NCBI RefSeq assembly: GCF_000332075.2
Contig: NZ_ALVU02000001.1
Span: 2,306,324 to 2,370,323, forward strand
Direction: 5' to 3'
Length of the DNA: 64,000 nt
From: Synechocystis sp. PCC 7509
GTDB taxonomy: Bacteria; Cyanobacteriota; Cyanobacteriia; Cyanobacteriales; Chroococcidiopsidaceae
In this document: positions 4,948 to 25,674 of the stretch, one piece after another
Numbering within the stretch: the stretch's first letter is position 1
How the letters are laid out: each line of letters opens with the position of its first letter
The notes under the pieces: model-generated
Seen by the model: only the letters and a program-made list of their open reading frames with translations
The model's database searches: none
What the model was told of the DNA's origin: nothing
Position numbers and translations under genes: made by a program

Positions 4948-5736
4948 CTATACTTGTGTTAGCCCTTCGCGCACAGCACGAACTAAATCTTCAGGAGTAC
5001 CGATATCAAGAAAATTGCCATTTTCAAATACCTCCACTTCTACCTTTAACCCGCTATCAATAGCTGATTGAATCGCATCGTTAATTAAAACTTCTTCAAG
5101 TGGCACAATGGGCTGATTAGCTAAATATTGATGCAAAAACTCTGTAAAACTTGGTGTCCAAGCGGCGGTAAACCAGCTATAACGCAATGTGCTATGGGTG
5201 GGTTTATCGATTACTTTGCTAACACAACCTTTAGCGTCAAAATCAACCATCCCGCCTTTATAAGGTTGGTCTAAAGGCACAACTCCCAAAACCAAATCTG
5301 CTTCGCTATCACTAAGGTGAGCTAGTAAACGCACAAAAGCATCTTGGGGTTGAAAAATAATATCTGGAAATCCTAAAGTAACCACCGCATCTTGCACAAA
5401 CTCATAAGCGCGATCCAAAGTATAAGGAACGCCGTACAAAGAGGTGACAACTAAATAGCCCAAATTCATGCCTACAAGCGAACCATCACCCAAATAAGCC
5501 GGAATATCCCACTTATTGGTACGCAAAAGTACGTAGGCTTTGCGAATTCCCGCTAGGCGCATACTTTCTAGTAAGTAATGGCAAACTACTTTCGGGCGCA
5601 AGCTACCATCGGTTGCTACCCGAAAACCAATTGGATACAACTCTTTGCTTCCAGGTAAAGGCGAAATGCGTCTTCCTTCTCCGGCGGCTGGAATCAAGCC
5701 GATCGCGCTTTGAATATTGTAATTTCTAATTGCCAT
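4948..5736 (-). CDS. Sugar-phosphate nucleotidyltransferase (RmlA-like)
   Basis: A 262-aa NTP_transferase-fold protein. The nucleotide-binding signature is GLIPAAGEGRRISPLPGSKE near residues 13-32, and Asp residues for metal binding are available (GFPDIIFQ, FLDIGTPEDL). Family members activate a hexose-1-phosphate with dTTP, CTP or UTP. It is the second nucleotidyltransferase of the operon besides RfbF, which implies that a second activated sugar is made. Which nucleotide it uses cannot be read from sequence. Gaps to the neighbours are 42 and 37 bp, consistent with one transcript. Confidence 0.75.
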   Translation of the reverse strand: MAIRNYNIQSAIGLIPAAGEGRRISPLPGSKELYPIGFRVATDGSLRPKVVCHYLLESMRLAGIRKAYVLLRTNKWDIPAYLGDGSLVGMNLGYLVVTSLYGVPYTLDRAYEFVQDAVVTLGFPDIIFQPQDAFVRLLAHLSDSEADLVLGVVPLDQPYKGGMVDFDAKGCVSKVIDKPTHSTLRYSWFTAAWTPSFTEFLHQYLANQPIVPLEEVLINDAIQSAIDSGLKVEVEVFENGNFLDIGTPEDLVRAVREGLTQV

Positions 5737-5778
5737 GAGTTACCAGAAAGTATTAATGCGATCGCCTATGCAAGCTAC

Positions 5779-6708
5779 CTAACGATTTAAAACCGTAGGC
5801 TGGAAAATTAGCACATCGTCAGCGCTGGGTGGTTTGGTATCGTAAAGAGCGGCTATATCTTCGGGTATACGTGCGAAGTCATGACCGCGCAAGTAGTCTC
5901 TCATTGTCGTTCCTGTACAAGCAGAATCAACGTTTGGCGCACCTTGTTTGGCTACTACATCATCAAAATGCACGGTGCGAAAGTCGATGCTAAAGCGCGT
6001 CCTACCAGAAGTATTGGGTACTGTGGAGTGCATCTGTGCGCCGGAAAAAACCATCACTCCCCCTGGTGGAGGCACAATTCTTACCTGCGGCTCGACTTCC
6101 ATAGGTTCTTCGGCGTGGGGTTGTTGGCGCGTATCTTTTTTGATATGTTTGGTGGCGTTTTTGCGGCTTTCCTTGTTCCATTCATAATAATCGTAACCAC
6201 TTGAGCCATTTTTTACAGGTTGACTCCAATAGCGGGGATGGAAAGCCATCACATTATCTGGCTCCACATCATAAATGGGAAACCACCAATTTAGCTGACA
6301 AGTAGGCGCAGAATACCAAGTATCGCGGTGAGGGTGGAAAGCGTAAGCAATACCAGAAGTTAGGTAATTGTCGCTGGTGGAAGTTCTCATGCGCGGTACG
6401 TCGAAGTAAGTTTTATTCAAGTCGCAACCTAGGTCGCTCAAAATTCCTTGCAGAAATTCCTTTGACTTAGGATGATGAATAAAAGCCGGCTTCAATGTAG
6501 CCAAAATTGCTACGTATTCCTCGACTGGCAGGCTGTATTGGGCTTTTTGTGGATCTAAAGGTGCAAACGCTTCCTTAATCATCTGGCGGGCAAATTCAAC
6601 CATAGCGATCGCACTTGGACAAACAGAATAAACAAATATCTGTCCGTTGTATAGATGCTGTCTCCTATCTTCATCGCTTAATTTGGCATCAAAAAAAATT
6701 GAGTTCAT
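5779..6708 (-). CDS. Fe(II)/2-oxoglutarate dioxygenase-like (phytanoyl-CoA dioxygenase-like) protein
   Basis: A 309-aa protein with a plausible facial triad: His and Asp in FHPHRDTWYS near residues 122-131, the distal His in SGAQMHSTVPN, and the 2OG-binding Arg in TSGRTRFSIDFR about ten residues later. The family hydroxylates or otherwise oxidises small molecules and sugars. Within the CDP-sugar operon (60 bp from the GT2 and 42 bp from the nucleotidyltransferase) it may tailor a sugar or its acyl group. Substrate and true activity are unknown. Its base composition and HIP1 content look like its neighbours, with no sign of recent transfer. Confidence 0.65.
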   Translation of the reverse strand: MNSIFFDAKLSDEDRRQHLYNGQIFVYSVCPSAIAMVEFARQMIKEAFAPLDPQKAQYSLPVEEYVAILATLKPAFIHHPKSKEFLQGILSDLGCDLNKTYFDVPRMRTSTSDNYLTSGIAYAFHPHRDTWYSAPTCQLNWWFPIYDVEPDNVMAFHPRYWSQPVKNGSSGYDYYEWNKESRKNATKHIKKDTRQQPHAEEPMEVEPQVRIVPPPGGVMVFSGAQMHSTVPNTSGRTRFSIDFRTVHFDDVVAKQGAPNVDSACTGTTMRDYLRGHDFARIPEDIAALYDTKPPSADDVLIFQPTVLNR

Positions 6709-6768
6709 TTTGCCTTATCTCCTAACAAATTCATCTGTGCTGCTAAATAAATAGCTGATCGCCAACAT

Positions 6769-7650
6769 CTAAAATAAATATTCCATGCAACCTTGGATTT
6801 CACCAATTTTGCCGCCAAAACGCCGCATCCAAATTACCCGGTCTTCCTTAGTCCGAATTTTGACTAACAAGACTAACAAGCCTTTCCAGCCACCTAAAAA
6901 TAACTTCAGTTTAACGAATTTACCTTTTAACAATCCATACCTATTTTTGACTGCCACCGCCGCCTTTGCCCAATTACGGGACTGAATGTAGTTGGCAACT
7001 AAATCGTGGCGTAAGCGGTAATGAATAGTAGCTTCAGGAATAAAGTGAAGCTCAAAACCCCCCTGTTGCGCTCTCCAACTAAATTCAATATCTTCCCCAA
7101 AAATCAGCGACTCATCAAAGCTACCAATAGTCTCGATCAAAGTGCGGGTGAACCCAATATTGCAACCGTTTCCCCAAGCAAAAAAGGGAGTTTCTTGGTG
7201 CGATCCTGGTGGTTCTTTTTGTTTATCTTCATGCTTCTGCACTCGCCAAGGCTCGTTAAGTTGTGTAAATTCTAATGGGCCGGTGACAAAGTCATACTTG
7301 CTGAGGGCATCACCCATAGCTGCTAACCAGCCGGGAGAAACTTGATCGTCAGCATCGCAAATTACAAAGGCATCGCTACTATTAGCTGCGGCTATACCAA
7401 CATTGCGGACGTAGGCTACGCCTTGTTTGGCAAAAGCATCAACAATCCGCAGATTCGGTAATTTATCTGCATACTGTTTGACAACCGCAACGGTATTATC
7501 CGTTGAATTATTATTACAAACAATCACTTCCCACGCGCCAGACCATTGTTGCCGGGCTAGGGCTTCCAGTTGAAGTGCGATCGTATCAGCCCCATTGAAA
7601 CAGGGAATAATTATGCTTAACTGAGCTTTTTGAGTGAGTTTACTGTTCAT
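6769..7650 (-). CDS. Family 2 glycosyltransferase
   Basis: A 293-aa GT-A fold transferase. The N-terminal LSIIIPCFNGADTIALQLEA and EVIVCNNNSTDNT are the nucleotide-sugar-binding strands, and the metal-binding motif is VICDADDQVSPGW near residue 98. Downstream GNGCNIGFTR and FGEDIEFSWR (the ED acid motif) complete the GT2 pattern. It probably adds one sugar to the lipid-linked repeat unit on the cytoplasmic face. It is the only glycosyltransferase inside this operon, so other linkages would need enzymes encoded elsewhere (for instance the GT4 and GT2 at 50.8-53.7 kb). Confidence 0.88.
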   Translation of the reverse strand: MNSKLTQKAQLSIIIPCFNGADTIALQLEALARQQWSGAWEVIVCNNNSTDNTVAVVKQYADKLPNLRIVDAFAKQGVAYVRNVGIAAANSSDAFVICDADDQVSPGWLAAMGDALSKYDFVTGPLEFTQLNEPWRVQKHEDKQKEPPGSHQETPFFAWGNGCNIGFTRTLIETIGSFDESLIFGEDIEFSWRAQQGGFELHFIPEATIHYRLRHDLVANYIQSRNWAKAAVAVKNRYGLLKGKFVKLKLFLGGWKGLLVLLVKIRTKEDRVIWMRRFGGKIGEIQGCMEYLF

Positions 7651-7711
7651 TTGGATGCAATCTCTGCGGGGAACATTGTTGCTCGACCTAAATAGTATTT
7701 TCCTGTAAAAA

Positions 7712-8263
7712 TTATCTTTCTATTCCTACCAGCATCGACTCCAACAAAGACCAACTAAAGTCTTTATCAGCAATTTCAGTGACGGGTAATGGCCAATCAA
7801 TTCCCAAAATGGGATCGTCATAACGCAGCCCGCGCTCGTACCCAGGCTCATATAACTTATTCATTTGATACATAACTTCTGTATCATCTGTAAGCGTTTG
7901 GTAGCCGTGAGCAAACATTTCTGGGATGTAAAGACTCCACCGATTTTCGGCGCTTAATTCTACGCCAACATGAGCCAAGTAGGTAGAAGAATTTGGGCGC
8001 ATATCAACAATTACGTCATAGATAGCGCCTTGCGTACAGCGCACTAACTTGGCTTCGGTTAAGGGAGTGTCTTGATAGTGCAGCCCTCGGATAGTTCCCT
8101 GTTTGTGATTAAAGGCAATGCTACACTGAACATTTGCTACTTCTAAGCCACGATCGGTAAATTCTTGGGTGCAGAAAGTCCGAGCAAAGAAACCGCGACT
8201 ATCTGCTCTTGGCTCGATATCAATAATAAATGCGCCCTGGAGTTCAGTTGTTGTAAATATCAT
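7712..8263 (-). CDS. RmlC-like NDP-4-keto-6-deoxyhexose epimerase
   Basis: I place the start at the ATG at 8263 (183 aa). It overlaps the upstream methyltransferase stop as ATGA and gives the usual family N-terminus MIFTTTELQGAFIID; an upstream start at 8311 adds 16 residues that do not fit the family. The cupin core carries the catalytic His in GTIRGLHYQ and the catalytic Tyr in VMYQMNKLYEPGYE, plus FARTFCTQEF and FAHGYQTL. RmlC enzymes epimerise C3 and/or C5 of a 4-keto-6-deoxy sugar. Because it sits with rfbF/rfbG and a C-methyltransferase, it probably acts on the CDP-linked, C3-methylated ketosugar, where only C5 epimerisation would be possible. Confidence 0.85.
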   Translation of the reverse strand: MIFTTTELQGAFIIDIEPRADSRGFFARTFCTQEFTDRGLEVANVQCSIAFNHKQGTIRGLHYQDTPLTEAKLVRCTQGAIYDVIVDMRPNSSTYLAHVGVELSAENRWSLYIPEMFAHGYQTLTDDTEVMYQMNKLYEPGYERGLRYDDPILGIDWPLPVTEIADKDFSWSLLESMLVGIER

Positions 8264-9492
8264 GAATAGACTTGTACCTCTGGAATTGGCACTACAAAGC
8301 TTCCCCCCCACTCGCGAATAAATGCGGTTTGAGAGATAATTTCATCTTTAAGATTCCAAGGCAAAATTAGTAAGTAATCTGGCTTAGTTTCTTTGATATG
8401 GTCAGGGGACATAATTGGGATATGCGTACCGGGTAAAAACAAATTTTGTTTGTGAGGACTGCGATCAACGGTATAGTCAATAAAATCTGTCTTCACACCG
8501 CAGTAGTTGAGTAGCGTATTACCTTTAGCGGGCGCACCGTAAGCAGCGATTACTTTTCCTTGAGATTTTGCTTCAATTAAAAAGCTTAGGAGCTTGTGTT
8601 TTGTCTCTTTGACTTTTTCGCCAAAACTCAAGTAAGGCTCTAACTTATCTAACCCAGCTTCAATTTCCTTTTCTTTTAGCTTAATTGCGCGATCGCTTAT
8701 TTTGACTTCACTAGCTTCATGCTGTCCATAAATCCGCAAGGAGCCGCCGTGAGTCGGCAATTCTTCAACATCAAATAAGGTCAAACCATGAGCAGCAAAA
8801 ACTTGGCTAACCGTTAAAAATGAATAGTAAGAATAATGCTCGTGATAAATAGTATCAAATTGATTTTTCTGTATCAGTTGCAATAAATGGGGAAATTCCA
8901 TTGTAATAATGCCCTTTGGCTTTAAAACAATTTTCATTCCCGCTACAAAATCATTCAAATCGGGTACGTGAGCTAAAACATTATTTCCTAGTAACAAGTC
9001 TGCTTGTTTGCCATTGGCGACCAATTCAGTAGCCGTTTGTACGCCAAAGAATTTGACTAAACTAGGTATACCTTTTTTTTCGGCTACTTTAGCTGTATTT
9101 CCTGCGGGTTCTATACCTAAAACCGGGATACCTTTTTCTTTAAAGTATTGCAGCAAATAGCCGTCATTACTAGCAATTTCAATTACTTGGCTATTAGCAT
9201 CAAATCCAAATTTTTCTACCATCAAATCGGTATAACCTTTCGCGTGTTTTAACCAACTATCAGAGTAAGAAGAAAAGTAAGCGTAGTCTCCATCTCCAAA
9301 AATATATTCGCGAGACTCAAAGTCTTCTATTTGTACCAAAAAACATTTTTCACAAACATAGGTGTGTAACGGATAAAAGTTTTCAACTTTGTTTAGATGT
9401 TCTGGTTTTAAATAAGAATTGGATAATGGAGACATTCCCAAATCGGCAAAAGTATGCTTTAAGGTGGTTTTACAGAAGCGACACTGAGTCAT
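8260..9492 (-). CDS. NDP-4-keto-6-deoxyhexose C3-methyltransferase (TylC3/EvaC type)
   Basis: A 410-aa three-domain methyltransferase. The N-terminal zinc-binding domain has CRFCKTTL and CEKC pairs (residues ~4-58). The central SAM-binding Rossmann domain has VIEIASNDGYLLQYF near residue 100. The family signature YHEHYSYYS lies near residue 216, and the C-terminal Methyltransf_14-like domain contains GAPAKGNTLLNYCG. Characterised relatives (TylC3, EvaC, CloU) add a methyl group to C3 of a 4-keto-6-deoxysugar. Its start overlaps rfbG by 4 bp and its stop overlaps the epimerase by 4 bp, so it is coupled to both. This is the gene that predicts a branched-chain sugar. Confidence 0.88.
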   Translation of the reverse strand: MTQCRFCKTTLKHTFADLGMSPLSNSYLKPEHLNKVENFYPLHTYVCEKCFLVQIEDFESREYIFGDGDYAYFSSYSDSWLKHAKGYTDLMVEKFGFDANSQVIEIASNDGYLLQYFKEKGIPVLGIEPAGNTAKVAEKKGIPSLVKFFGVQTATELVANGKQADLLLGNNVLAHVPDLNDFVAGMKIVLKPKGIITMEFPHLLQLIQKNQFDTIYHEHYSYYSFLTVSQVFAAHGLTLFDVEELPTHGGSLRIYGQHEASEVKISDRAIKLKEKEIEAGLDKLEPYLSFGEKVKETKHKLLSFLIEAKSQGKVIAAYGAPAKGNTLLNYCGVKTDFIDYTVDRSPHKQNLFLPGTHIPIMSPDHIKETKPDYLLILPWNLKDEIISQTAFIREWGGSFVVPIPEVQVYS

Positions 9493-12265: not shown

Positions 12266-13450
12266 ATGATTGCCGAAACTATGAATGCTAACGATTTAAT
12301 TAAAACCCTTGCTGGATTAAAACAAGAGCAGTTCAGTGGCAACTTGTTGGTAAAAAGCACAAGCACCGAGGGAAATTTAGCGCCAGATTGGAATTTTTGC
12401 TTGTTTCTGGGCAGAATTTTGTACGCCACTGGAGGCAATCATCCCGTTAGACGCTGGCAAAGAAACCTACTAGCTCAATGCCCGCAACTTGACATTGGGC
12501 AACTAAAACAATTGGTGGTCAATATTTCTAATCCAGCAACTTTGTCCGCCGTCACCAGTTGGGAATATCAACTATTACATTTAGGAGTAGAGCGCCACCA
12601 AATTAACCGCGAACAAGCAGCAAAAATCATCACTGCGATTGTTAGCGAAGTATTGTTTGATATTTCTCAAGCAACTCAAGTTAGCTTTCAAATCAAGCCA
12701 GAACATATATCAGTTCCCGTCCAACTGGCTTTGCTAGATCCAGGGCTAGTGCTGAGGGAAGTACAACAACAAAGAATGTTATGGCAAAAATCCCAAATTG
12801 GCGATCGCCATCCCAACCAAGCCCCTAACATTGCTCAAAAAGAACAATTACAACAACAAGTATCGGCTCCCGTTTACCAAAACCTTGTCAAACTGTTAGA
12901 TGGACATCGGACTTTGCGAGAACTTGGCATAGTCATGAAGCGCGATGCGGTTCAAGTTACTAGCTCTTTACTGCCATTTTTAAAATCGGGAATAGTAGAG
13001 CTAATCGAACTTGCGGATTTTCCCGCTCCAGTGTTTCCTACCGCTACAAAACCCGCCGTAGAAAGCACCCATGCACCGCTAATTGCTTGCGTCGATGACA
13101 GCCCTTTAGTTTGCCAAAGTATGGAAAAAATTCTCACTAGCGGCGGTTATCGGTTCTTAGGCGTGCAAGACTCCTTACGGGCGATCGCAACTTTACTTAG
13201 TCGCAAACCCGATCTAATTTTCTTGGATCTAATCATGCCTAACACCAATGGGTATGAAATTTGCACTCAGTTGCGTAAAGTATCAGCGTTCCGCGATACG
13301 CCGATTGTGATCTTAACCGGAAATGACGGTATTATCGACCGTGTACGCGCCAAAATCGTCGGTGCTTCTGGTTTTTTGAGCAAACCAGCCAATGCCGAAA
13401 CGGTGCTGGAAACAACCCGCCAGCACCTCCACGAATTTGTAGAAGACTAG
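12266..13450 (+). CDS. pixG: PATAN-domain response regulator (PixG/PatA-like)
   Basis: A 394-aa protein with an N-terminal PATAN/DUF4388 domain (residues ~6-110; LIKTLAGLKQEQFSGNLLV) and a C-terminal receiver domain (~270-390). The receiver has the acidic pair CVDDSPL, the phosphorylated Asp in FLDLIMPN, and the conserved Lys in FLSKP. This PATAN-REC architecture defines PixG, PilG and PatA and is the usual first gene of cyanobacterial pilus-chemotaxis operons. It probably relays CheA phosphorylation to the pilus motor. A second in-frame ATG five codons in (MNANDLIK) is an alternative start. The symbol follows gene order and the bilin-type receptors downstream. Confidence 0.85.
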   Translation: MIAETMNANDLIKTLAGLKQEQFSGNLLVKSTSTEGNLAPDWNFCLFLGRILYATGGNHPVRRWQRNLLAQCPQLDIGQLKQLVVNISNPATLSAVTSWEYQLLHLGVERHQINREQAAKIITAIVSEVLFDISQATQVSFQIKPEHISVPVQLALLDPGLVLREVQQQRMLWQKSQIGDRHPNQAPNIAQKEQLQQQVSAPVYQNLVKLLDGHRTLRELGIVMKRDAVQVTSSLLPFLKSGIVELIELADFPAPVFPTATKPAVESTHAPLIACVDDSPLVCQSMEKILTSGGYRFLGVQDSLRAIATLLSRKPDLIFLDLIMPNTNGYEICTQLRKVSAFRDTPIVILTGNDGIIDRVRAKIVGASGFLSKPANAETVLETTRQHLHEFVED

Positions 13451-13504: not shown

Positions 13505-13867
13505 ATGAGTACAGTTTTAGTCGTTGAAGATTCTCCTACCCAAATGGACGTAATTACTAGCTGCCTGCAAAAAGGCGGACTAACCGTAATGACCGCTATA
13601 GATGGCAAAGAAGCGATGACCAAAATTAGCAACCAAAAACCAGACTTAATTGTTTTGGACGTAGTATTACCCGATCGTAGTGGGTTTGAACTATGCCGCG
13701 ATCTCAAAGCCGAAAGTTCTACCAGTGGCATCCCTGTCGTAATTTGCTCTACCAAGTCAACAGACATGGATAAGTTTTGGGGCAAAAAACAAGGGGCTGA
13801 TGCCTACATTACTAAGCCCGTAGACCAAGAAGAACTGTTAAAAACAGTAAAACAACTGATTAAATAA
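13505..13867 (+). CDS. pixH: CheY-like single-domain response regulator (PixH-like)
   Basis: A 120-aa lone receiver domain. It has VVEDSPTQ for metal binding, the phospho-acceptor Asp in LIVLDVVLPD near residue 52, the switch Ser/Thr in VVICSTK and the Lys in AYITKP. An AGGA Shine-Dalgarno sequence lies about 10 bases upstream of the ATG. It is the second gene of the operon, 54 bp after pixG, the position held by PixH/PilH. It is a diffusible target or phosphate sink of the CheA encoded downstream. Confidence 0.88.
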   Translation: MSTVLVVEDSPTQMDVITSCLQKGGLTVMTAIDGKEAMTKISNQKPDLIVLDVVLPDRSGFELCRDLKAESSTSGIPVVICSTKSTDMDKFWGKKQGADAYITKPVDQEELLKTVKQLIK

Positions 13868-13903
13868 AGCGTTTATAAGAGCGCATTGCCGCAGGAGATA
13901 GCG

Positions 13904-14464
13904 ATGATATCTGAGTTTTTGTCTAAAGGCATTTCATTAGGATCGACAACTACCGAAGAAGCAGCAAAGGAGCAAGAGCAGTTTTTGCGCTTTCACCTAG
14001 CTCCCGACCTCAACGCCGCCTTGCCAGTGGAGCAAATGACCGAAGTATTCACCGTTTCCACTAATAAAGTTGTACCCATTCCTCATATGCCCCCTTGGGT
14101 AATTGGCGTGTACAACTGGCGGGGAGAAATTTTGTGGCTGGTGGATTTGGGCTACTTGCTAGGCGGTACGCCTTTGTACCAACAAGCGAGTAGCCGATCG
14201 CTTTACACGGCAATTGTGATCAATTCCCAGCAATCCGGCGGGCGACAAGGAGGCGGTAGCACGGCAGGAAAAAAAATGCTAGGACTTGCCGTTAATCGAG
14301 TAGAAGACATGGAATGGTTCAACTCTGACTTGATTCAATCGCCCCCAGAATCGGCGGTAAATGCGGCATTAGTGCCATTTTTACGTGGCTACTGGTTAAA
14401 AACTAATGGTGAAATTGTCGTTGTTTTAGACGGAAACTCAATTATCGCTGGAATGCCTAAATAA
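13904..14464 (+). CDS. pixI: CheW-like coupling protein (PixI-like)
   Basis: I choose the ATG at 13904 (186 aa) because AGGAG sits at 13893-13897 with a 6-nt spacer; the longer frame would need a TTG at 13886. The CheW fold is seen in LPVEQMTEVF, IPHMPPWVIGVYNWRGEILWLVDL and LGLAVNRVEDM. CheW docks chemoreceptors to the CheA kinase. A Gly/Gln-rich insertion (QQSGGRQGGGSTAGKK) lies around residues 110-125 and would form a flexible loop. A palindromic repeat begins immediately after the stop codon. Confidence 0.88.
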   Translation: MISEFLSKGISLGSTTTEEAAKEQEQFLRFHLAPDLNAALPVEQMTEVFTVSTNKVVPIPHMPPWVIGVYNWRGEILWLVDLGYLLGGTPLYQQASSRSLYTAIVINSQQSGGRQGGGSTAGKKMLGLAVNRVEDMEWFNSDLIQSPPESAVNAALVPFLRGYWLKTNGEIVVVLDGNSIIAGMPK

Positions 14465-14595: not shown

Positions 14596-17500
14596 ATGAC
14601 TCAAACTTCTCCCAAACCCTCCGATCGCAATATCGCTAATGGTCACAATCAAGCCGATGGCGATACAGAGGTTAGCGGTTTTTTCAAGTCAGCATTTCCT
14701 TCCCCCACTACCGAATTATCTACCTCTAGTCCTCAATCTGCGCCCGCACGTAAATCGACCGTAAGGCAGATGCCCCAAGAGATGAAAAGTTTCTCGTGGT
14801 GGCAACGTCTAGGTTTAAGACCTAAGTTAACTTTAGGCGCGATCGCACTTGGGGTTATTCCCTTAGCCCTGCTCGGTACTATTGCTTACAACGTAGCTGA
14901 TAGAGAGATCGTTAACCAGCTTAATCAAACCAAAGAGGCTAAAGCCGTCGATTTAGCCAACCAGATGGAAGTTTTCTTACTCGAACGCTCTGCGGACGCT
15001 CTGTCTATAGCTGACTTACGGATTGTTGCCAATCCTAAAGGGCGAGCAACAGCTACCGCCAAAGAAAAGCAAGAGCAGTTAGATTCAATCGTCAAAAATT
15101 CCGGTTTTTATGACAGTATCGCCGTTTCCGATTTACAAGGGAACATTCTTCTGCAAAGTAGCGGCGAACCTGTCGCTACTTTAAGCGATAAAGATTATTT
15201 CCAAGAAGTCATCAAAACAAAAAAAGTAGCAATTACCGATCCACGACCATCGGTAGTTACTAAAAAGCTGTCCTTTTTCGTAGCTGCGCCAATTTTTGAT
15301 TCTGCCTCTGGCAAATTTATTGGTGTAGTGCGGACTCGAACCCCAGGAGAAAAAATCACGAAACTCCTAGAAAACTTCGCCAGAAATAATAATAAATACT
15401 ATGTTTTAGGCGCTGAGGGAGAGGTAATTCTAGCCAACGAACCGGAGCGTATTGGCAGAGATGCCAAGGCAGATTTCCCTAACCTAGCTAAACTCCAAGC
15501 CGCCAAAAAAACGGGTACAGCCTTGGGTAACGATGCCGTAAATAAAGATGAAGAATTAATTGGCTATACACCTTTTGAGAAATTTGAAGGTGTTCCAGAA
15601 TTGGGCTGGAGTGCGGTAGTTTCCGAGAAATCAGATAGCGCCTATGCCGCCCAGTATGTATTGATCTGGGCGCTAGGTCTAGGTACTTTGGCTACCGCAT
15701 TATTGGTAGGCGCTCTAGCAGCTTATGTTGCTAGACTTGCCACCCGCCCAATTTTAGAAGCTACCAGTACGGTAGAAAAATTAGGTAGAGGAGAATTTGA
15801 TAACCGCGTAGAAGTAACCGGAGGCGACGAAATCGCGGTACTAGGGTCAAACATTAATAAAATGGCAGACCAGGTACAAATCTTGTTACGACAGCAGGAA
15901 CTCGAATCTGAACAAGCCCGCTTATTTGCGGACGTTGCGAGTTCCCGCGCCGATAACGTCCAAGACGTAGAGGGAGTCTTCAACCAAGCTCTAGCCGGAG
16001 CTAAAGATATTCTTCAAGCCGATCGGGTAGTTGTCTATCGCTTCAAACCTGACTTTAGCGGCTATATTGCCAACGAATCGGTATCCCCTGGTTTTCCTCA
16101 AGCCCTTAATGACAAAATCGAAGACCCCTGTATCAGTGATGAGCTAATTGAAGCTTACAAACAGGGTCGAGTCGTGCCAACAAGTAATGTATTTGAAGCA
16201 GGTTTTCACCCCGACCACTTGGCATTGATGGAACGGCTGCAAATAATGGCAAATTTAGTTACGCCAATTATCAACAACAACGAACTCTACGGCTTGCTAA
16301 TTGCCCACCACTGCACTGCACCCCACGATTGGCAACAAACAGAAATCACCTTCCTAACACAAATGTCCGAGCGACTTGGAGTAATTTTGGGTCGCGTCAG
16401 CTTCCTAGAACAAAAAGAAGCAGAAGCTACGCGCTCGGCATTGCTCAAAGATATCACTGTTAGCATTGGTCAATCTTTAAGCCCTGAAGATATTTTTAAT
16501 CAAGCAGTTCAACAAGCCCGCCGCGCCATCAATTCTGACCGTGTAGTTATCTACAGCTTTAACGATAAATGGCAAGGCACAGTAACCGCCGAATCGGTAG
16601 GTGAAGGCTGGCCCAAAGCAATGGGAGCCAAAATCGACGATCCTTGCTTTGCCGACAAATACACCGAACGCTACAAAGCTGGTCGCGTCCAAGCTACCAA
16701 CAACATCTACAAAGCAGGCTTGACAGATTGCCACATCAAGCAACTCTCTATTTTTGGTGTTCAAGCAAACTTAGTAGCGCCAATTTTACGCGGCGGTCAA
16801 TTGCTGGGTTTACTTATTGCTCACCAATGCTCTGCTCCCCGCAACTGGGAGCAAGGAGAAATAGACTTGTTCTCCCAGCTTGCAACTCAAGTAGGTTTTG
16901 CTCTTGACCGCGCAAACTTGCTAGAGCAGCAAAGAGCGGCTAAAGAATTCCTGCAAAGACGAGCGCTAGAACTACTTATTGAAGTAGACCCCTTGAGCCG
17001 AGGCGACTTAACTATTCGCGCCAACGTAACGGAAGATGAAATTGGTACGGTTGCGGACTCTTACAACGCTACGATTGGTAGCTTGCGGAAAATTGTTACC
17101 CAGGTACAACTAGCAGCAATTCAAGTAGCGGCTACTACCACCGATAACCAAGGTTCTGTTCAAGGACTATCTTTTGAAGCGTTGCGTCAAACAAAAGAAA
17201 TTGCTGGCGCTTTAGAGGAGTTGGCACTTATGACTACTTCTATTCGCGCCGTAGCTGCTAACGCATCCCAAGCAGAAGCGGCAGTAAAACGAGCCACCGA
17301 CACGGTACGAGAAGGGGATTCGGCAATGAACCGCACGGTAGACGGTATCTTGGCAATTCGAGAAACGGTAGCGGAAACCTCGAAAAAAGTAAAACGATTG
17401 GGGGAATCTTCACAAAAGATTTCTAAAGTAGTAAACCTCATTGGTTCTTTTGCCGACCAAACGAACTTGTTAGCGCTAAACGCTTCGATTGAAGCGGCTC

Positions 17501-17937
17501 ACGCTGGAGAACAAGGACGAGGATTTGCAGTGGTAGCCGATGAAGTTCGAGTATTAGCGCGCCAGTCTGCCGCAGCGACGGCGGAAATTGAAGCGTTAGT
17601 AAAAGACATTCAAACAGAAACCAACGAAGTAGTAGCAGCGATGGAAGCTGGTACAGAGCAGGTAGTTACAGGTACGCGCCTAGTAGACGAAACTCGCCAA
17701 AGTTTGAATAAAATTACCGCCGTGAGTACCGAGATTAGTCAATTGGTAGCGGCGATCGCCCTCGCCGCCGTTGCTCAGTCCAAAGCTTCAGACTCGGTAA
17801 CGCACACTATGACCGACGTAGCCACTATCGCCGGAACAACATCAACAGAGGCTTCTAACGTATCTGCGTCGTTTACCGAACTACTAGCAGTAGCTCAAGA
17901 CTTGAGCGCGAGTGTAGGTCAATTCAAAGTCAAATAA
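14596..17937 (+). CDS. pixJ: PixJ-like methyl-accepting chemotaxis photoreceptor with two GAF domains (DXCF cyanobacteriochrome)
   Basis: A 1113-aa receptor: TM1 (~76-97), a periplasmic dCache-like domain, TM2 (~353-377), HAMP, GAF1 (~440-610), GAF2 (~620-770), a second HAMP-like stretch and a C-terminal MA signalling domain. GAF2 has the DPCF motif (Cys684) and the canonical bilin-binding Cys in TDCH (Cys712). The 28-residue spacing equals that in PixJ-type DXCF cyanobacteriochromes, which sense violet/blue to green light. GAF1 has DPCI (Cys512) but Asp540 at the canonical Cys position, so it probably carries no covalent bilin. The receptor hairpin reads [18 protein letters not shown], with His where Arg is usual. 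It is closely related to the next gene. Confidence 0.9.
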
Positions 17938-18018
17938 AAAGCCAATAAACGGGGAGGTAGAAATATTCTCCTCCTCTAACTATTTTCCATTCATACATAA
18001 AAAATTAGAGTAACCACC

Positions 18019-21000
18019 ATGTTAGAGCAGCGTCTTAAAAAACCTATCAATAACAGCAACACCACCAACGGCAACCAAGCATCAATAAAAAGTGCCGAAG
18101 CATTAAGCGCAAAGTTGCCGTTACTACCACCAGTGAAGTCTTCTACTTCTTTGTGGGAGCGGTTAATTCAACCCTGGAACAACTTAAACTTTCAAACCAA
18201 GCTGGCTTTGCTGTTAATAGTTAGTACGGCTGTGCCAGTAATTGCAGTCACTCAAGGACTCACTTCTATCAACCAAAAGCGTGAGTTTGGGCAACTAAAA
18301 GAAAGTCTGCAAAAGGATGGACGAGCCTTTGCTGGGGAGTACGTTCTCTGGACGCAGGTAGAAAGTCAATCCCAAGCCCAAAACTTAGCTAATCTGCTCC
18401 AGGCTACCAAAATTGATTTAAGTAACCCTCAGCAAGTATTAGCTAACCAGCAATTGTTGAGAAACTCCTTAATCTTTGAAAATGGCGAAGATCCCGAATC
18501 CAGCAAAAACTTTCAAATTTTTACCGATGCTCAAGGTAGAACGGTTGCTCAAAATATCAAAGTTATCGAAGATACTTCTAATAACACCCCATTACCTGTA
18601 AAAACAGGAGTTTTAACTCCGCAAAAATATCGCTCAGTGTCTTTGCCAACAGGAATTAATCTGGGAAATATTCCCATTGTGAAAAATGCTCTGCAAACTG
18701 GTCGTCCATTAGATGGCATAGAGTTAATTAAAAGCGAACCTCTCCAACTATTAGGGTTAGATAAACAAGCAAATATTGGTTTGCGATCGCAACCTACCGC
18801 CAATCTTCCCGTTGCCAAGCAACCATCTCCTCAAGGAACTTATGATATTGATGGTGGCAATACAGGCTTAGTTAGCATGGCGGTTTATCCCGTCAAAATT
18901 AATAACAAGTTAGTAGGAACAGTCATTGTTGGCTCGATGCTTAACCGCAACTACGGTTTAGTCGATAAATTTTCTCAAAACTACAACGTACCTACAGCCA
19001 CAGTGTTTGCTCAAGACTGGCGGGTAACTTCTAACGTTCCCTACAGCGATGGTAAAACTAGAGCTATTGGAACGCGGGTTGCTAGAGAAGTTGCCGAGAA
19101 AGTTCTCAATCAGGGGCAAGATTTTAGCGGACAAACTAATATTGTTGGTAAAAATTACCTGACGTTTTATACCCCAATCTACGATCATCAAAAAGCACTC
19201 AATCCAAGCCAAGCGAAGCCTGTAGGCATAGTCTACATTGGAACTTCACTAGCTGAGGTAGAGAGTTTAGCGAAAAATCAACAACTAACGGCTTACGGTA
19301 TTGGCGGCGGATTATTGCTATTGATTAGTTTAATTTCTATTCCGGTAGCTGGTTCTTTCTCGCGATCGCTCAAGCGTCTATCTGTTTTTGCCCAAAAGGT
19401 AGGAGATGGAGAACAAGGACTACGATTAGAAACAACGGAGCGCGCTGATGAAATTGGTGTTCTTACTCAAGAATTAAATCAGATGGCGGCTAGTATTGAC
19501 ACTAACTTGGATAGCCGTCGCCTTGAAGCAGAACGAGCCAGATTTTTTACAGAAATTGCCACCGCTCGTAATGCTGATGAAAAAGCTATATTTAACCAAG
19601 CTCTTACAGGTGCTAGAGAAATTCTGCAAGTAGATCGTGTAGTTATCTATCGCTTTAATTCTGATTGGAGTGGTTATATCTTAAGTGAGTCAGTATTACC
19701 TGGCTTTCCTCGCGCTCTCAATAACAAAATTGAAGATGCTTGTATCAGTCAAGAGCTAATTGCAGCTTACAAACAAGGTCGGGTTGTCCCCACTAACAAC
19801 GTATATGAAGCAGGTTTTCATCCCAAACATTTGCAATTAATGGACAAGTTGCAAATCAAAGCCAATTTAGTTACACCGATTGTTCAAGGAGAAGAATTAT
19901 TTGGCTTACTGATTGCTCACAACTGTCAAAATACTCACGAATGGCAGCCGCTAGAAATTGACTTTTTGACCCAAATGTCTGCTCAGTTAGGACTAATCCT
20001 CGATCGCGTAAACTCCTTAAAGCAAACCCAAGCTGCCGCCGATCGTGCAGGTTTAGTTAGAGACATCACAGTAAAACTAGCTCAAGCGACTCAAGCAGAC
20101 AATATTTTTGACACTGCTGTAACAGAGATTCGCACTGCTTTAAAAAGCGATCGCGTAGTTATCTATAGTTTTAACGACAAGTGGCAAGGTACTGTTACCG
20201 CCGAATCGGTAGACGCAAGTTTCCCTAAAGCAATGGGAGCCAAAATCGACGATCCCTGCTTTGCTGACAAATATGTACAACGTTACAAGGGTGGTAGAGT
20301 CCAAGCTACCAACAACATCTACAAAGCTGGATTAACCGAGTGTTACCTCAAGCAACTCTCGATCTTTGCTGTCCAAGCCAACTTAGTTGCGCCAATTTTA
20401 CAAAACGGTCAATTGCTCGGTTTACTAATTGCTCATCAATGCTCCGCTCCCCGCAACTGGCAGCAAGGAGATATTGACTTATTCTCTCAGCTAGCAACCC
20501 AAATCGGTTTTGCCCTCGACCGTGCTAACTTGCTTGAACAGCAAAAAACAGGTAAAGAATTACTACAAAAACGAGCGCTACAACTACTTATTGAAGTAGA
20601 CCCATTGAGCCGAGGCGACTTAACCATCCGCGCCAACGTGACAGAAGATGAAATTGGGACAGTAGCTGACTCTTATAACTCTACAATTAGTAGTTTGCGG
20701 AAAATTGTAACTCAAGTACAACAAGCCGCTATTCAAGTAGCCGCCACTACTACCAATAACCAAGACTCGGTACAAGGACTATCAACCGAAGCTGCGCGTC
20801 AAACGGAAGAAATTGCTTCCGCTTTAGCACAAATTGCCAAAATGGCTACTTCCATTCGCGCCGTAGCTGCTAACGCTTCTCAAGCTGAAGCGGCGGTACA
20901 ACGAGCCACCAATACAGTAGAAGCGGGAGACTTGGCAATGAACCGAACTGTAGACGGGATCTTGGCAATTCGCGAAACGGTAGCGGAAACCTCGAAAAAA

Positions 21001-21549
21001 GTAAAACGCTTGGGCGAATCTTCGCAAAAGATTTCGCAAGTAGTAAACTTAATTGGTCGATTTGCTGCTCAAACAAACTTACTGGCGCTCAAAGCTTCCA
21101 TTGAAGCAGCCAGAGCCGGAGAAGAAGGACGAGGATTTGCGGTACTAGCTGATGAAGTTCGAGTCTTAGCAAGGCAATCAGCCGACGCAACCGGAGACAT
21201 TGAAGCGCTGGTAAAAGATATTCAAACAGAAACTAGCGCTGTAGAAGCGGCAATGGCAACCGGAACAGAGCAGGTAGTTACCGGAACGCGCCTAGTAGAC
21301 GAGACTCGCCAAAGCTTAAACAAAATTACTGCCGTTAGTAGCGAGATTAGCCAATTAGTAGCGGCGATCGCATCGGCAGCAACCCTCCAGTCTGAAGCCT
21401 CAGACTCGGTAACGCACACAATGACCGACGTAGCCGCGATCGCTGGCAAAACCTCAACGGAAGTTGATTCGGTATCGGCTTCCTTTAATGACCTTTTAGT
21501 TGTGGCTCAAGAATTGAGTGCGAGTGTGGGTCAGTTTAAAGTCAGTTAA
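18019..21549 (+). CDS. Second PixJ-like chemoreceptor with two GAF domains (variant bilin site)
   Basis: A 1176-aa paralogue of the preceding receptor: TM1 (~61-83), a longer periplasmic domain, TM2 (~424-446), HAMP, GAF1 (~520-670), GAF2 (~690-845), HAMP-like and MA. GAF2 keeps DPCF (Cys747) and the canonical Cys775 at the same spacing, but the usual following His is Tyr (TECY). GAF1 has DACI (Cys575) and Lys603 in place of the canonical Cys. In the MA hairpin the invariant Asn is Lys ([18 protein letters not shown]). GAF2 and MA are nearly identical to those of the first receptor, while the periplasmic parts differ, suggesting tandem duplication with later gene conversion or sensor swapping. 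Confidence 0.9.
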
Positions 21550-21622
21550 AAGAGTGGGGCAATTGCCGCCGCTATTGCCCTTCTTTATCGCCCAATATAT
21601 TTATAAAAACCTGGTATTTAAT

Positions 21623-24600
21623 ATGGCAATCGATGCTGATATCCGCGACCACGCCTATCAATTTTTTATTCAAGAAGCGCCAGAGCTATTACAGTTAATC
21701 GAATCAGAGTTATTAACGGTAAAGAGCGATCGCAGTGTCTCTAAAGTTCATAATATGATGCGGGCGGCTCACTCCATTAAAGGGGGAGCAGCTAGTGTTG
21801 GGCTAGATACGATCAAAACTTTGGCTCATAGCTTAGAAGATATTTTTAAAGCTCTCCACCACCAAGAATTAGTCATTGATGACAAAATAGAAGGCTTGTT
21901 GCTCCAAGCTTATGACTGTCTGCGCGTACCTTTAATGGAACAGTTAGAGACAGGTTATTTTGACCCAGAGCAGGCAATGAGCGCCGCCGAACCTGTTTTT
22001 ACTCAAATTGAAGCTCAGTTAGGCGATTTTATTGGTGCAGAAGGGGACTTGCCTAGCTCTATTGATTTAGGAGTAGACATTGCTTTATCTATTTTTGAAG
22101 TAGATGTCGCCCAAGGATTGGAGCGTTTGGAAGCCGTTTTAGCTCATCCCCAGGAGGAAGAAGTCGCTGGAGAACTAAGAGCGCAAGCTGAAGTATTTTC
22201 TGGGCTTGCCGAACTGCTTTGTATGCCAGGATTTGGAAATATTGCCCACACGGCGATCGCTGCTTTGGACGCTCACCCCGATCGGGCTTTGGAAATTACT
22301 CAAGTCGCCTTTGCCGATTTTCAGGCAGCACGAACCGGAGTTATGAATGGCGATCGCACTAAAGGCGGCGAGCCTTCGGCTCAACTCCTAGCTTTGGCAA
22401 GTAGTGAGATACCCTTGCCAACCTCGCAACCAACCAAGTTACAGCAAACAACTACCTTTCAAGAGTTTTCAGAGTTTTCGCCGACAGAGTTATTCTCCGA
22501 ATCAACAGCAAGCGCCGACACGCATTTCTTTATTGATGCTGAAGATAACAGCATGATGTTAGATGATATATTTGGCGACTTGTCAAACACGGCAGAAGTT
22601 GCACCAATAGACAATATTGAAGTTATTACCCCACCGCTAACTTTAAAGAGCGAATTTGTAGCACCAAAGCTCGACTATGCCGATCCCGATCCAGGTGTAA
22701 TGAGCATTGATGATATGTTTGGGGGCTGGTCTGGTCTAGATACTACCGAAAATGCGATCGCCGCCCAGCTAAATCCAGCTAATAAAGTTGAAGTTGATCA
22801 AGATACAGCTTCGGTAGACGATATTTTTGGCGACCTAAGTACAAGCTTTTTAACTCCACCATCTCAAATTGTAGAAATTGAAGCAACGAAGGTTGAACCA
22901 CAGCTAGATTCTCAGCAGTTTGTTCAATCCATCGAGCAAGTATTCGATCGCCTCCCGTTAATGGCAGAGGGAGACTTACCAAAGCCAGAAAACCCCATTG
23001 CTATAGTACCTGCAAAAGCAAATTTACCTGTTACTAAGCAAGCTGCAAGCCACCGGGCTAAATCTAATTCACCCCAAAAAATCGAACCAAAAGCAATTCC
23101 CACCGCCGCAAATGCTCAAGCACAGCAGCAACTCTCAGTCAGAGTTGACTTAGAACGACTCGAACGAATGAACAATACCGTCGGCGAATTGGCGATCAAC
23201 CGCAATAGTTTGTCACTGCAAAACGAACAACTACAAGCCACTGTTCAAGACCTACTACGCCGATTTAGCCAGTTTCAGAGTATGGGCAACCAGTTACGCA
23301 ATCTCTCTGACCGGATGCTAGTTTCTCCAGAGCGGTATAACTCCAATACTCCCGATCGCAAATCCAACAACGAACCGTCAATTGCTGCTGTAAGTGGAGC
23401 TTCTTTTCGTCCGGTAGATTTTGACTCGTTGGAAATGGACAGCTACGGCGAATTGCACTCTTTGCTGCAAAAAACCTTTGAGGAAATTGTGCAGCTAGAA
23501 GAAACTGTTGGGGACGTAGTGCTACTAGCTGGACAATCTAGCCAAAGCGTAGACAAACAACGGCAAATGCTTTCTCACCTGCGAGATGACTTGATGTGGG
23601 CGAGAATGCTACCCATTGGCGAAGTGCTAAACCGTTTCCCCCGGATGTTGCGCGATTTGTCTACAAGTTATGACAAGCCAGCAGAGCTAAAAATCAACGG
23701 TACAGGTGTTTTAGTTGATAAGGCAGCTTTAGAGAAGCTCTATGACCCATTGCTACACCTAATTCGTAACTCCTTCGATCACGGCATCGAACGCCCGGAA
23801 GTGCGTCGCGAACAAGGTAAATCCGAGCGCGGACAAATTGAAATTAAAGCTTATCACCAAGGTAGCCAAACCATTGTTGAAGTTAGAGACGATGGGCGGG
23901 GGATAAATTTAGAACGCATCCGCAGCCGGGCGGTAGAAATGGGTTTATTGTCGGCAGACAAAGCCGACCATGCGTCAACTTCTAACTTATTAGAATTGAT
24001 GTTTGAACCAGGGTTTTCCACCGCCAACCAAGTTAGCGAACTTTCGGGGCGCGGTGTGGGGCTAGATGTTGTTCGCAGTCAATTAAGAAGTCTCAAAGGT
24101 AGCGTCAGCGTAATTTCCGAATCAGGAGAAGGGACTTGTTTTACATTACGTATTCCTTTGACCTTGACTTTGGCAAAATTATTAGTTTGCTTTGTGGGTA
24201 ATAGTGCCTTTGCCTTGCCTTCCGACAGTATCAAAGAAATTTTGATTCCAGAACCGGAACAAGTAAAGTTTTCTGGGGGAAAAAGATTTTTACATTGGCA
24301 AGGTCGCATTGCTCCTGCCTATCACCTCTCAGAACTACTAAGCTACGCGTGTCCTTTATCAGAATCTATGCCTAGCCAAGCCTTGGTAGCTGTTCCTTCT
24401 CCCGATGACTGGGCAGCGCCGATGTTATTGCTTGAGCAAGATGGTCAAATTTTGGCGCTGGAAATCGATCGCTTGGTTACTGAGCAAGAACTTGTAATTA
24501 AACCAATGGGAGATGCGATCGCATCTCCAAGTTATATCTACGGTTGTACAATCGTCGGGGATGGTAGCTTAATTCCGGTTATTGATGGGGCGGCGCTGCT

Positions 24601-25132
24601 AGAATCTTTTGTCGGACATGGTAAACATAAATCTGTAACAATTGGTAATGCTCAATTGCCTATGGCAAGCGAAAATGGAGCAGTAGCAATTTCTGTGCCA
24701 GCTTTGCCTCCGCAAAGAATCATGACAGAAACAGTTTTAGTAGTAGATGATTCAATTACGCTGCGGCAAACTTTGGCTTTAACTTTTGAAAAAGCTGGCT
24801 ATCGAGTATTGCAAGCGCGAGATGGACGCGAGGCGATCGAACAGTTGCAAAAAAATTCGGCAACCATAAACTTAGTAGTCTGCGATGTAGAAATGCCCAA
24901 CATGAACGGCTTTGAATTTTTGAGCCAGCGCCGACAAGATCCGGTAATTTCTAAGCCGCCAGTAGTAATGCTTACTTCTCGCAGCAGTGACAAACATAGG
25001 ATGTTGGCAAAGCAATTAGGCGCTAGAGACTACTTTACTAAGCCTTACATTGAGCAGGAATTTTTGAGCGCAATTTCAACTATTATCAAGCAGGAAAATC
25101 CTTTGGGAGTGCCTGCCCTGAGCGGAAAATAA
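21623..25132 (+). CDS. pixL: CheA-type hybrid histidine kinase with C-terminal receiver (PixL-like)
   Basis: I choose ATG 21623 (MAIDADIRDHAYQFF), which gives an HPt domain at the extreme N-terminus; an upstream frame start at 21518 overlaps the receptor gene and adds 35 unrelated residues. Domains of the 1169-aa protein are HPt with His50 (AAHSIKGGA), an acidic linker (~250-480), dimerisation and HATPase (RNSFDHGIERPE, DDGRGI, LSGRGVGLDVV), a CheW-like domain, and a receiver with Asp1088 (VVCDVEMPN). The kinase autophosphorylates and passes phosphate to the PixG/PixH receivers and its own receiver. The linker has three copies of a short DDIFG-type motif at residues 314, 363 and 399. Confidence 0.93.
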   Translation: MAIDADIRDHAYQFFIQEAPELLQLIESELLTVKSDRSVSKVHNMMRAAHSIKGGAASVGLDTIKTLAHSLEDIFKALHHQELVIDDKIEGLLLQAYDCLRVPLMEQLETGYFDPEQAMSAAEPVFTQIEAQLGDFIGAEGDLPSSIDLGVDIALSIFEVDVAQGLERLEAVLAHPQEEEVAGELRAQAEVFSGLAELLCMPGFGNIAHTAIAALDAHPDRALEITQVAFADFQAARTGVMNGDRTKGGEPSAQLLALASSEIPLPTSQPTKLQQTTTFQEFSEFSPTELFSESTASADTHFFIDAEDNSMMLDDIFGDLSNTAEVAPIDNIEVITPPLTLKSEFVAPKLDYADPDPGVMSIDDMFGGWSGLDTTENAIAAQLNPANKVEVDQDTASVDDIFGDLSTSFLTPPSQIVEIEATKVEPQLDSQQFVQSIEQVFDRLPLMAEGDLPKPENPIAIVPAKANLPVTKQAASHRAKSNSPQKIEPKAIPTAANAQAQQQLSVRVDLERLERMNNTVGELAINRNSLSLQNEQLQATVQDLLRRFSQFQSMGNQLRNLSDRMLVSPERYNSNTPDRKSNNEPSIAAVSGASFRPVDFDSLEMDSYGELHSLLQKTFEEIVQLEETVGDVVLLAGQSSQSVDKQRQMLSHLRDDLMWARMLPIGEVLNRFPRMLRDLSTSYDKPAELKINGTGVLVDKAALEKLYDPLLHLIRNSFDHGIERPEVRREQGKSERGQIEIKAYHQGSQTIVEVRDDGRGINLERIRSRAVEMGLLSADKADHASTSNLLELMFEPGFSTANQVSELSGRGVGLDVVRSQLRSLKGSVSVISESGEGTCFTLRIPLTLTLAKLLVCFVGNSAFALPSDSIKEILIPEPEQVKFSGGKRFLHWQGRIAPAYHLSELLSYACPLSESMPSQALVAVPSPDDWAAPMLLLEQDGQILALEIDRLVTEQELVIKPMGDAIASPSYIYGCTIVGDGSLIPVIDGAALLESFVGHGKHKSVTIGNAQLPMASENGAVAISVPALPPQRIMTETVLVVDDSITLRQTLALTFEKAGYRVLQARDGREAIEQLQKNSATINLVVCDVEMPNMNGFEFLSQRRQDPVISKPPVVMLTSRSSDKHRMLAKQLGARDYFTKPYIEQEFLSAISTIIKQENPLGVPALSGK

Positions 25133-25161: not shown

Positions 25162-25674
25162 ATGAAAAATACTCTAGTCAAATCAAAATCTGCTAATTTG
25201 CAACAATCTTCTAGAAGCGATCGCACTGCATCGGTAAAAATGATTGTGTTTACAATCGGTAGTTTCGCTCTAGCTTTGCCTATTGAGATTGTCCACAAAG
25301 TTTTAAACCAAATTCCTGTTTATGGCAGTGGGTTAAATGGGGTAGGAGTTGCCCACGTGGGCGATCGCGAAGTTACGGTTATTGACTTGCATCGGCAATT
25401 ATTTCAATCCAGCATCATCAATGAAACATCACAAAAAGGTTATTTGCTGATTCTCCATAGCAAAAGCGGCGAATTGTACGGCATTCCCGTAGCATCAGTT
25501 CCTCTGTTGATGGATTTACCTCTCTCTACTATTCGCGTGTTACCTGAGTCTTACCGTAACGGTGACATTCTCCAAATGGCTACTCATGTCTGTTATTTGC
25601 CGGAGGAAGAACCACCACTAACAATATTTTTAGTCAATCCTGAGCAAATGTTGCAAAGCAGTAGCAAGGAATAA
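25162..25674 (+). CDS. Additional CheW-like protein at the end of the pix-like operon
   Basis: A 170-aa CheW-fold protein: KMIVFTIGSFALALPIEIVHKVL, GVGVAHVGDREVTVIDLHRQL and GIPVASVPLLMDLPLSTIRVLP. GGGGAGG lies about ten bases upstream of the ATG, a strong ribosome-binding site. It follows the CheA gene by 29 bp and precedes a strong terminator, so it belongs to the same transcript. The standard Synechocystis-type pixGHIJJL order has no such gene at this position to my knowledge. It may couple one of the two receptors specifically or compete with PixI. Confidence 0.82.
   Translation: MKNTLVKSKSANLQQSSRSDRTASVKMIVFTIGSFALALPIEIVHKVLNQIPVYGSGLNGVGVAHVGDREVTVIDLHRQLFQSSIINETSQKGYLLILHSKSGELYGIPVASVPLLMDLPLSTIRVLPESYRNGDILQMATHVCYLPEEEPPLTIFLVNPEQMLQSSSKE

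Follow-up and report, generated by a model that had tools for sequence, protein, structure and literature searches.

Reciprocally differing signalling tips in two tandem cyanobacteriochrome chemoreceptors of a Pix-type operon from Synechocystis sp. PCC 7509

We analyzed a 64,000-nucleotide stretch of the genome of Synechocystis sp. PCC 7509 (contig NZ_ALVU02000001.1, positions 2,306,324 to 2,370,323; hereafter the window, whose coordinates are used unless another locus is named), which carries two neighboring chemoreceptor genes whose signalling tips differ from each other in a conserved and reciprocal manner. These genes, receptor A (14596–17937; 1113 residues) and receptor B (18019–21549; 1176 residues), both lie on the plus strand and, as delineated by their open reading frames, motifs and Pfam matches, display the same succession of Cache, HAMP, GAF1, GAF2 and MCP domains; the Cache domain of A is of the dCache_1 type and that of B of the sCache_3_3 type. 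Per 60-base block, their DNA identity mostly reaches 0.7–0.9 in the region that starts with GAF2, and it mostly stays below 0.5 toward the N terminus. Pfam matches and a gene order that is kept across loci place them in an operon, all on the plus strand, which begins with a PixG-like PATAN/response-regulator gene (DUF4388 and receiver domains; 12266–13450), followed by a PixH-like CheY receiver (13505–13867), a PixI-like CheW (13886–14464), receptors A and B, a PixL-like CheA with a C-terminal receiver domain (21518–25132) and a second CheW-like protein (25162–25674). The coordinates of CheA are those of the mechanically called frame, which begins within the 3′ end of the receptor B gene; its true start probably lies downstream of the receptor B stop codon.

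This succession of a PatA-type regulator, CheY, CheW, MCP receptors and CheA is that of the Synechocystis Pix operon, which is given in the gene table of one study as pixG, pixH, pixI, pixJ1, pixJ2 and pixL (sll0038–sll0043; PMC7076178) and likewise contains two MCP genes in the same order, as judged by locus number. The window differs from it in featuring the additional CheW after CheA and in that both of its receptors have two bilin-type GAF domains. The locus is thus a Pix-type operon, with a predicted role in phototaxis, that encodes two paralogous cyanobacteriochrome chemoreceptors. Motifs and Pfam matches confirm the original prediction, made from the letters of this DNA, that two tandem receptors with GAF2 domains of the DXCF type share an operon with a single CheA gene.

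The GAF2 domain of receptor A (16420–16929) displays a DPCF motif with Cys684 (16645–16647) and the canonical Cys712 followed by His713 (16729–16734), and that of receptor B (20032–20541) the equivalent Cys747 (20257–20259) and Cys775 followed by Tyr776 (20341–20346). Re-reading the codons recovered these residues, along with the DPCI and DACI motifs, Asp540 and Lys603 of the GAF1 domains (see below), just as first described. In each of the four GAF domains of the window, the canonical position lies 28 residues beyond the motif Cys. A search of solved structures with three of them (B GAF2 and both GAF1 domains) recovered TePixJ as the best solved relative of each, with E-values of 1.7e-46 for B GAF2 (against 3vv4), 3.9e-37 for A GAF1 and 5.3e-36 for B GAF1, so chance similarity is not an issue. 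The TePixJ GAF domain (3vv4, 4glq), a blue/green sensor of the DXCF type, shares with the window GAF2 domains the DPCF motif, the canonical Cys 28 residues on and the same flanks, and has a His where receptor B has Tyr776. After removal of GAF matches spanning fewer than 91 profile positions, all 155 DXCF GAF domains surveyed in the loci read (see below) combine the DXCF Cys with the canonical Cys. Both GAF2 domains are probably bilin-binding modules of this blue/green type, as far as their sequence signatures can tell.

The original prediction went further and took Tyr776 to mark a shifted second color in receptor B, a view that is weakened by the behavior of this position across relatives. 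Tyr is not uncommon here and not confined to receptor B: of the 155 DXCF GAF domains, 128 have His next to the canonical Cys, 24 have Tyr and 3 have another residue. Among the two-GAF receptors, the GAF2 domains of A-type receptors (with the Asn381/His388 tip described below) divide into 33 with Cys-His and 3 with Cys-Tyr, and those of B-type receptors (with the Lys381/Arg388 tip) into 22 and 12. This excess of Tyr in the B-type (12/34 versus 3/36) has a Fisher p of 0.008 in a test that ignores kinship and is confined to these two states, three further B-type GAF2 domains (SY, FH and CD) being excluded. Within the genus of the window, Tyr is found in receptor A of loci L127 and L129, with His in the window and L128, and in receptor B of the window and L127, with His in L128. 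The receptor B GAF2 domain of the remaining relative (L129:5481-9026) has lost both bilin Cys residues (DPSF, ESY), and its K tip (Lys381) is intact. A Tyr/Leu position near ring D of the chromophore is described as tuning color (PMC7504144); Leu occupies this position, five residues past the canonical Cys, in GAF2 of both A and B. Tyr776 is therefore a poor predictor of color, with His and Tyr switching among close relatives, and we dropped it as a marker of receptor B for the same lability. A and B may differ in color, though the sequences give no indication that they do.

Beyond what had originally been noted, both GAF1 domains keep a His beside the lost canonical Cys. The GAF1 domain of A (15916–16410) has a DPCI motif with Cys512 (16129–16131), and Asp540 in place of the canonical Cys is followed by His541 (16213–16218), while GAF1 of B (19528–20022) has a DACI motif with Cys575 (19741–19743) and Lys603 followed by His604 (19825–19830). 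In all 58 DXCI GAF domains surveyed, the canonical Cys is absent and the His following that position is kept, which fits a maintained bilin site rather than the lost one read into these domains earlier. In a midpoint-rooted FastTree of 465 GAF domains of at least 140 residues (which left out 2 of the 58 DXCI domains, and held no named DXCIP reference), the 56 DXCI rows, including both window GAF1 domains, fall inside a single 70-row set (support 94) together with 14 other GAF domains and no DXCF domain. Reportedly, in work by Fushimi from 2016, the receptor cce_4193 combines a DXCIP-type GAF1 with a DXCF-type GAF2. The DXCIP cyanobacteriochromes are characterized in a review as being devoid of the first Cys, attaching the chromophore via the DXCIP Cys and having a green-absorbing dark state (PMC5578081). 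The window GAF1 domains resemble them in the retained DXCI Cys, the missing canonical Cys and the GAF1 placement, and differ in having Ser in place of Pro after the Ile (DPCIS, DACIS), a position occupied by Ser or Gly in 20 of the 58 DXCI domains. Given their DXCI clade, the kept His and the properties of the DXCIP type, the GAF1 domains of A and B are probably light-sensing domains of this kind carrying bilin on a single Cys. The candidate reading of GAF1 as an inactive domain was dropped in light of the clade membership and the retained His.

A further feature absent from the original prediction is the divergence of the tips of the MCP domains. We numbered the hairpin tips by alignment with Tsr (1qu7), which is gap-free between Tsr and the window receptors in this region, and verified the register by the spacing of E385, R388, F396 and F373, N381. 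On codon re-reading, the tip of A (17446–17535) displays S370, D373 (residue 954), N381 (962), H388 (969) and V399, and that of B (21058–21147) R370, A373 (residue 1017), K381 (1025), R388 (1032) and L399. Neither has the canonical trimer-contact combination of Asn381 and Arg388: A is devoid of Arg388 and B of Asn381. Among the Tsr residues, Phe373, Asn381, Glu385 and Arg388 are singled out as mattering both for the formation of clusters and for function (PMC8466855), and E385–R388′ is described as an inter-dimer ionic lock (salt bridge) in a homologous model (PMC8144572).

To place these differences, we collected loci that resemble receptor B or match a K-tip profile, and read the tips of the window and of all loci numbered L046 and above (L043, L044 and L045 being dropped as the same contigs as L127, L129 and L128). 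Removal of MCP rows with more than five gaps at the tip reduced 216 aligned rows to 214 tips, or 208 after deduplication, which by residues 381/388 comprise 96 N/R, 56 K/R, 44 N/H, 9 N/N, 2 N/K and 1 N/G. Without exception, the 56 K381 tips also have R388 and A373. When tips are grouped by positions 381 and 388, columns 370, 373, 381, 388 and 399 are the only ones at which the 53 A tips share no residue with the 56 B tips; three of these five played no part in the grouping. On an ideal coiled-coil helix (3.5 residues per turn), four of them, 370, 373, 381 and 388, fit into an arc of about 103 degrees.

The two kinds of tip mostly occur together. There are 57 loci, from 55 genomes and nine families, with a K/R, N/H or N/N tip, and 51 of these combine K/R with N/H or N/N. 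Of the six one-type loci, L155, L156, L160, L162 and L171 lie near contig ends, leaving L126 as a true exception. The same positions emerge from a column test in which the last receptor was compared with the preceding one in 55 tandem MCP clusters over 320 columns, the groups being set blind to the tip: the five best-separating columns are 370, 399, 373, 381 and 388, with a residue overlap of 0.05–0.11 as against 0.25 for the sixth (408). These five columns also lead in the 32 clusters picked mainly via the K-tip profile and in the 23 from a plain receptor search, the margin to the sixth being small in the latter (0.17 versus 0.22). Altogether, 50 of the 55 tandem clusters display the tip code, in the order NH-KR (41), NR-NN-KR (8) or KR-NH-NN (1). 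The conserved A/B difference sits in the signalling tip, with reciprocal changes at trimer-contact positions that otherwise hardly vary. Certain loci depart from the plain pair in structure: L053 and L133-L139, relatives in the same family, have three tandem receptors with N/R, N/N and K/R tips, Asn replacing His at 388, and the pair at L132:5584-10924 has both its receptors fragmented.

In some loci, the K-tip partner has no recognizable sensor. Five loci from one family (L054-L057 and L063) carry the K-tip gene as a bare frame of 173–224 residues, situated between A and CheA, with no GAF match and with a best 19-residue hydrophobic mean of 1.17–1.31, as against 2.04–2.19 in the window receptors; its tip motif is intact and its flanks are strongly diverged. 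In a further three (L064, L066 and L180), the K-tip receptor features a single GAF domain devoid of the bilin Cys motifs. The retained part of the second gene in all these loci is the tip and not the light sensor.

Phylogenetic analysis of the MCP domains with the tip columns removed, using 50 rows from 29 loci hand-picked for spread, clusters the A and B domains of the genus of the window together (six rows, support 100/98). A single K-tip clade is rejected on these columns (p-AU 1.2e-45, with long branches present), and a vertically inherited K tip of single origin was rejected with it, under the same caveat of long branches. A 206-row FastTree (few columns, over-gappy rows dropped) likewise mixes the tip types. 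Either the domain bodies of neighboring receptors were homogenized with the tips remaining distinct, or the tip pair had more than one origin; either course would suggest selection on the tip. Conversion tracts visibly skipping the tip were considered and dropped, as third-position identity between A and B has no clear silent-site dip marking it.

Mixed trimers of dimers are known for the E. coli receptors Tsr and Tar. The E. coli receptors have identical trimer contacts according to PMC3676780; the window partners, in contrast, differ reciprocally at theirs. We posit that A and B act as paralogous co-receptors, with their tips assembling jointly into mixed trimers, and put the chances of this at about even, judging from sequence comparisons. 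Each tip type would trimerize poorly by itself: by analogy, Lys381 would be expected to weaken pure B trimers and His388 pure A trimers, while acidic residue 373 of A and basic residues 370 and 381 of B could offer new contacts in mixed ones. In TlpA, replacing Asn by Arg at the trimer interface is described as blocking trimers (PMC4632190), and the same study cites a block by this change for Tsr from a paper with N381 in its title. A and B dimers would thereby build mixed trimers around CheA/CheW, so that the light signals of both would reach one kinase as a fixed team. More tentatively, and with odds somewhat against it, the acidic/His-tip receptor and the basic/Lys-tip partner might constitute a naturally occurring two-part chemoreceptor code in cyanobacterial Pix systems, the two signalling as a mixed trimer in which the Lys-tip partner would be the essential scaffold and could shed its sensor to become a soluble bare tip.

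Several observations weigh against the mixed-trimer proposal. The pair is over-represented in the sample, because loci were collected for their resemblance to receptor B or to the K-tip profile. The pair is not strictly obligate, since L126 (G391) is a complete operon whose sole receptor (5466-8822) is K-tipped and matches A over its full length (61%). Five tandem clusters have no code (L061, L107, L121, L124 and L144), so a tandem arrangement does not force it, and eight triple clusters contain an extra N/R receptor. Kinship-corrected contrasts are too few to give the sign tests power, with four supported among those listed and at best a p of 0.125; R388 goes with K381 in one or two of these four, with no difference in the rest. 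The absence of a clear silent-site dip at the tip points the same way, as does the tolerance of Ala for Phe at the 373 position in an Agrobacterium receptor, mentioned in PMC8466855.

Other accounts of the tip pair have to be weighed against this evidence. The tip types could instead insulate A and B from each other, each in its own array and perhaps with its own CheW; two CheW genes do flank the receptor/CheA set, reciprocal charges could disfavor mixing equally well, and the tips remain distinct while the domain bodies group by genus. We nonetheless deem insulation unlikely: the operon has one CheA gene, L126 keeps both CheW genes with one receptor, and a bare K-tip segment with neither a GAF domain nor a strongly hydrophobic stretch is implausible as a separate sensory array. 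The bare segments also bear on the idea that A and B form heterodimers, as they span only the hairpin end and have strongly diverged flanks, and the long helix of A would more naturally partner another A. The equal length (321 residues each) of the C-terminal segments of A and B that served as seed would suit such heterodimers, as would the different places that the two subunits of a dimer take in receptor trimers (PMC4692393), but we find them decidedly improbable. At similar, marginally longer odds stands the notion that the tips impart different docking or kinase biases at CheA/CheW, for example one activating and one inhibiting, with no special A–B contacts: the K tip is retained even alone in L126, but 370, 373, 381 and 388 share one helix arc, and 373, 381 and 388 are among the residues named for trimer clusters (PMC8466855).

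The view that the pair serves chiefly to compare two colors, Tyr776 having shifted that of B, would be compatible with the other accounts and could draw on the Tyr bias of B-type GAF2 domains, uncorrected as that is for kinship. It is quite unlikely in view of the flipping of His and Tyr inside the genus, the identical ring-D Leu in A and B, the loss of both Cys residues in receptor B of L129 and the K-tip partners that are either devoid of GAF domains or have a single one without bilin Cys motifs. That the tips are a mere relic, differing through descent from one old duplication without selection, would accord with the small number of supported independent contrasts; we regard it as highly improbable in light of the rejection of a single K-tip clade on tip-less columns, long branches notwithstanding, and of the 56 K381 tips that all carry A373 and R388, the otherwise diverged bare segments included.

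The operon type, the classes of cyanobacteriochromes and mixed receptor trimers are already known; of the reciprocal tip pair, we found no description in the literature searched, which covered few subscription papers. Receptor arrays are usually described as teams with interchangeable, near-identical tips. If the co-assembly of A and B in mixed trimers holds, the reciprocal tip pair would exemplify, in nature, a team whose composition is enforced. It would also account for the second receptor gene that some Pix operons retain even where no sensor is recognizable in it, and could furnish a design for orthogonal receptor teams. The question posed by tandem light receptors would then shift from color alone to the sharing of one kinase by two receptors.

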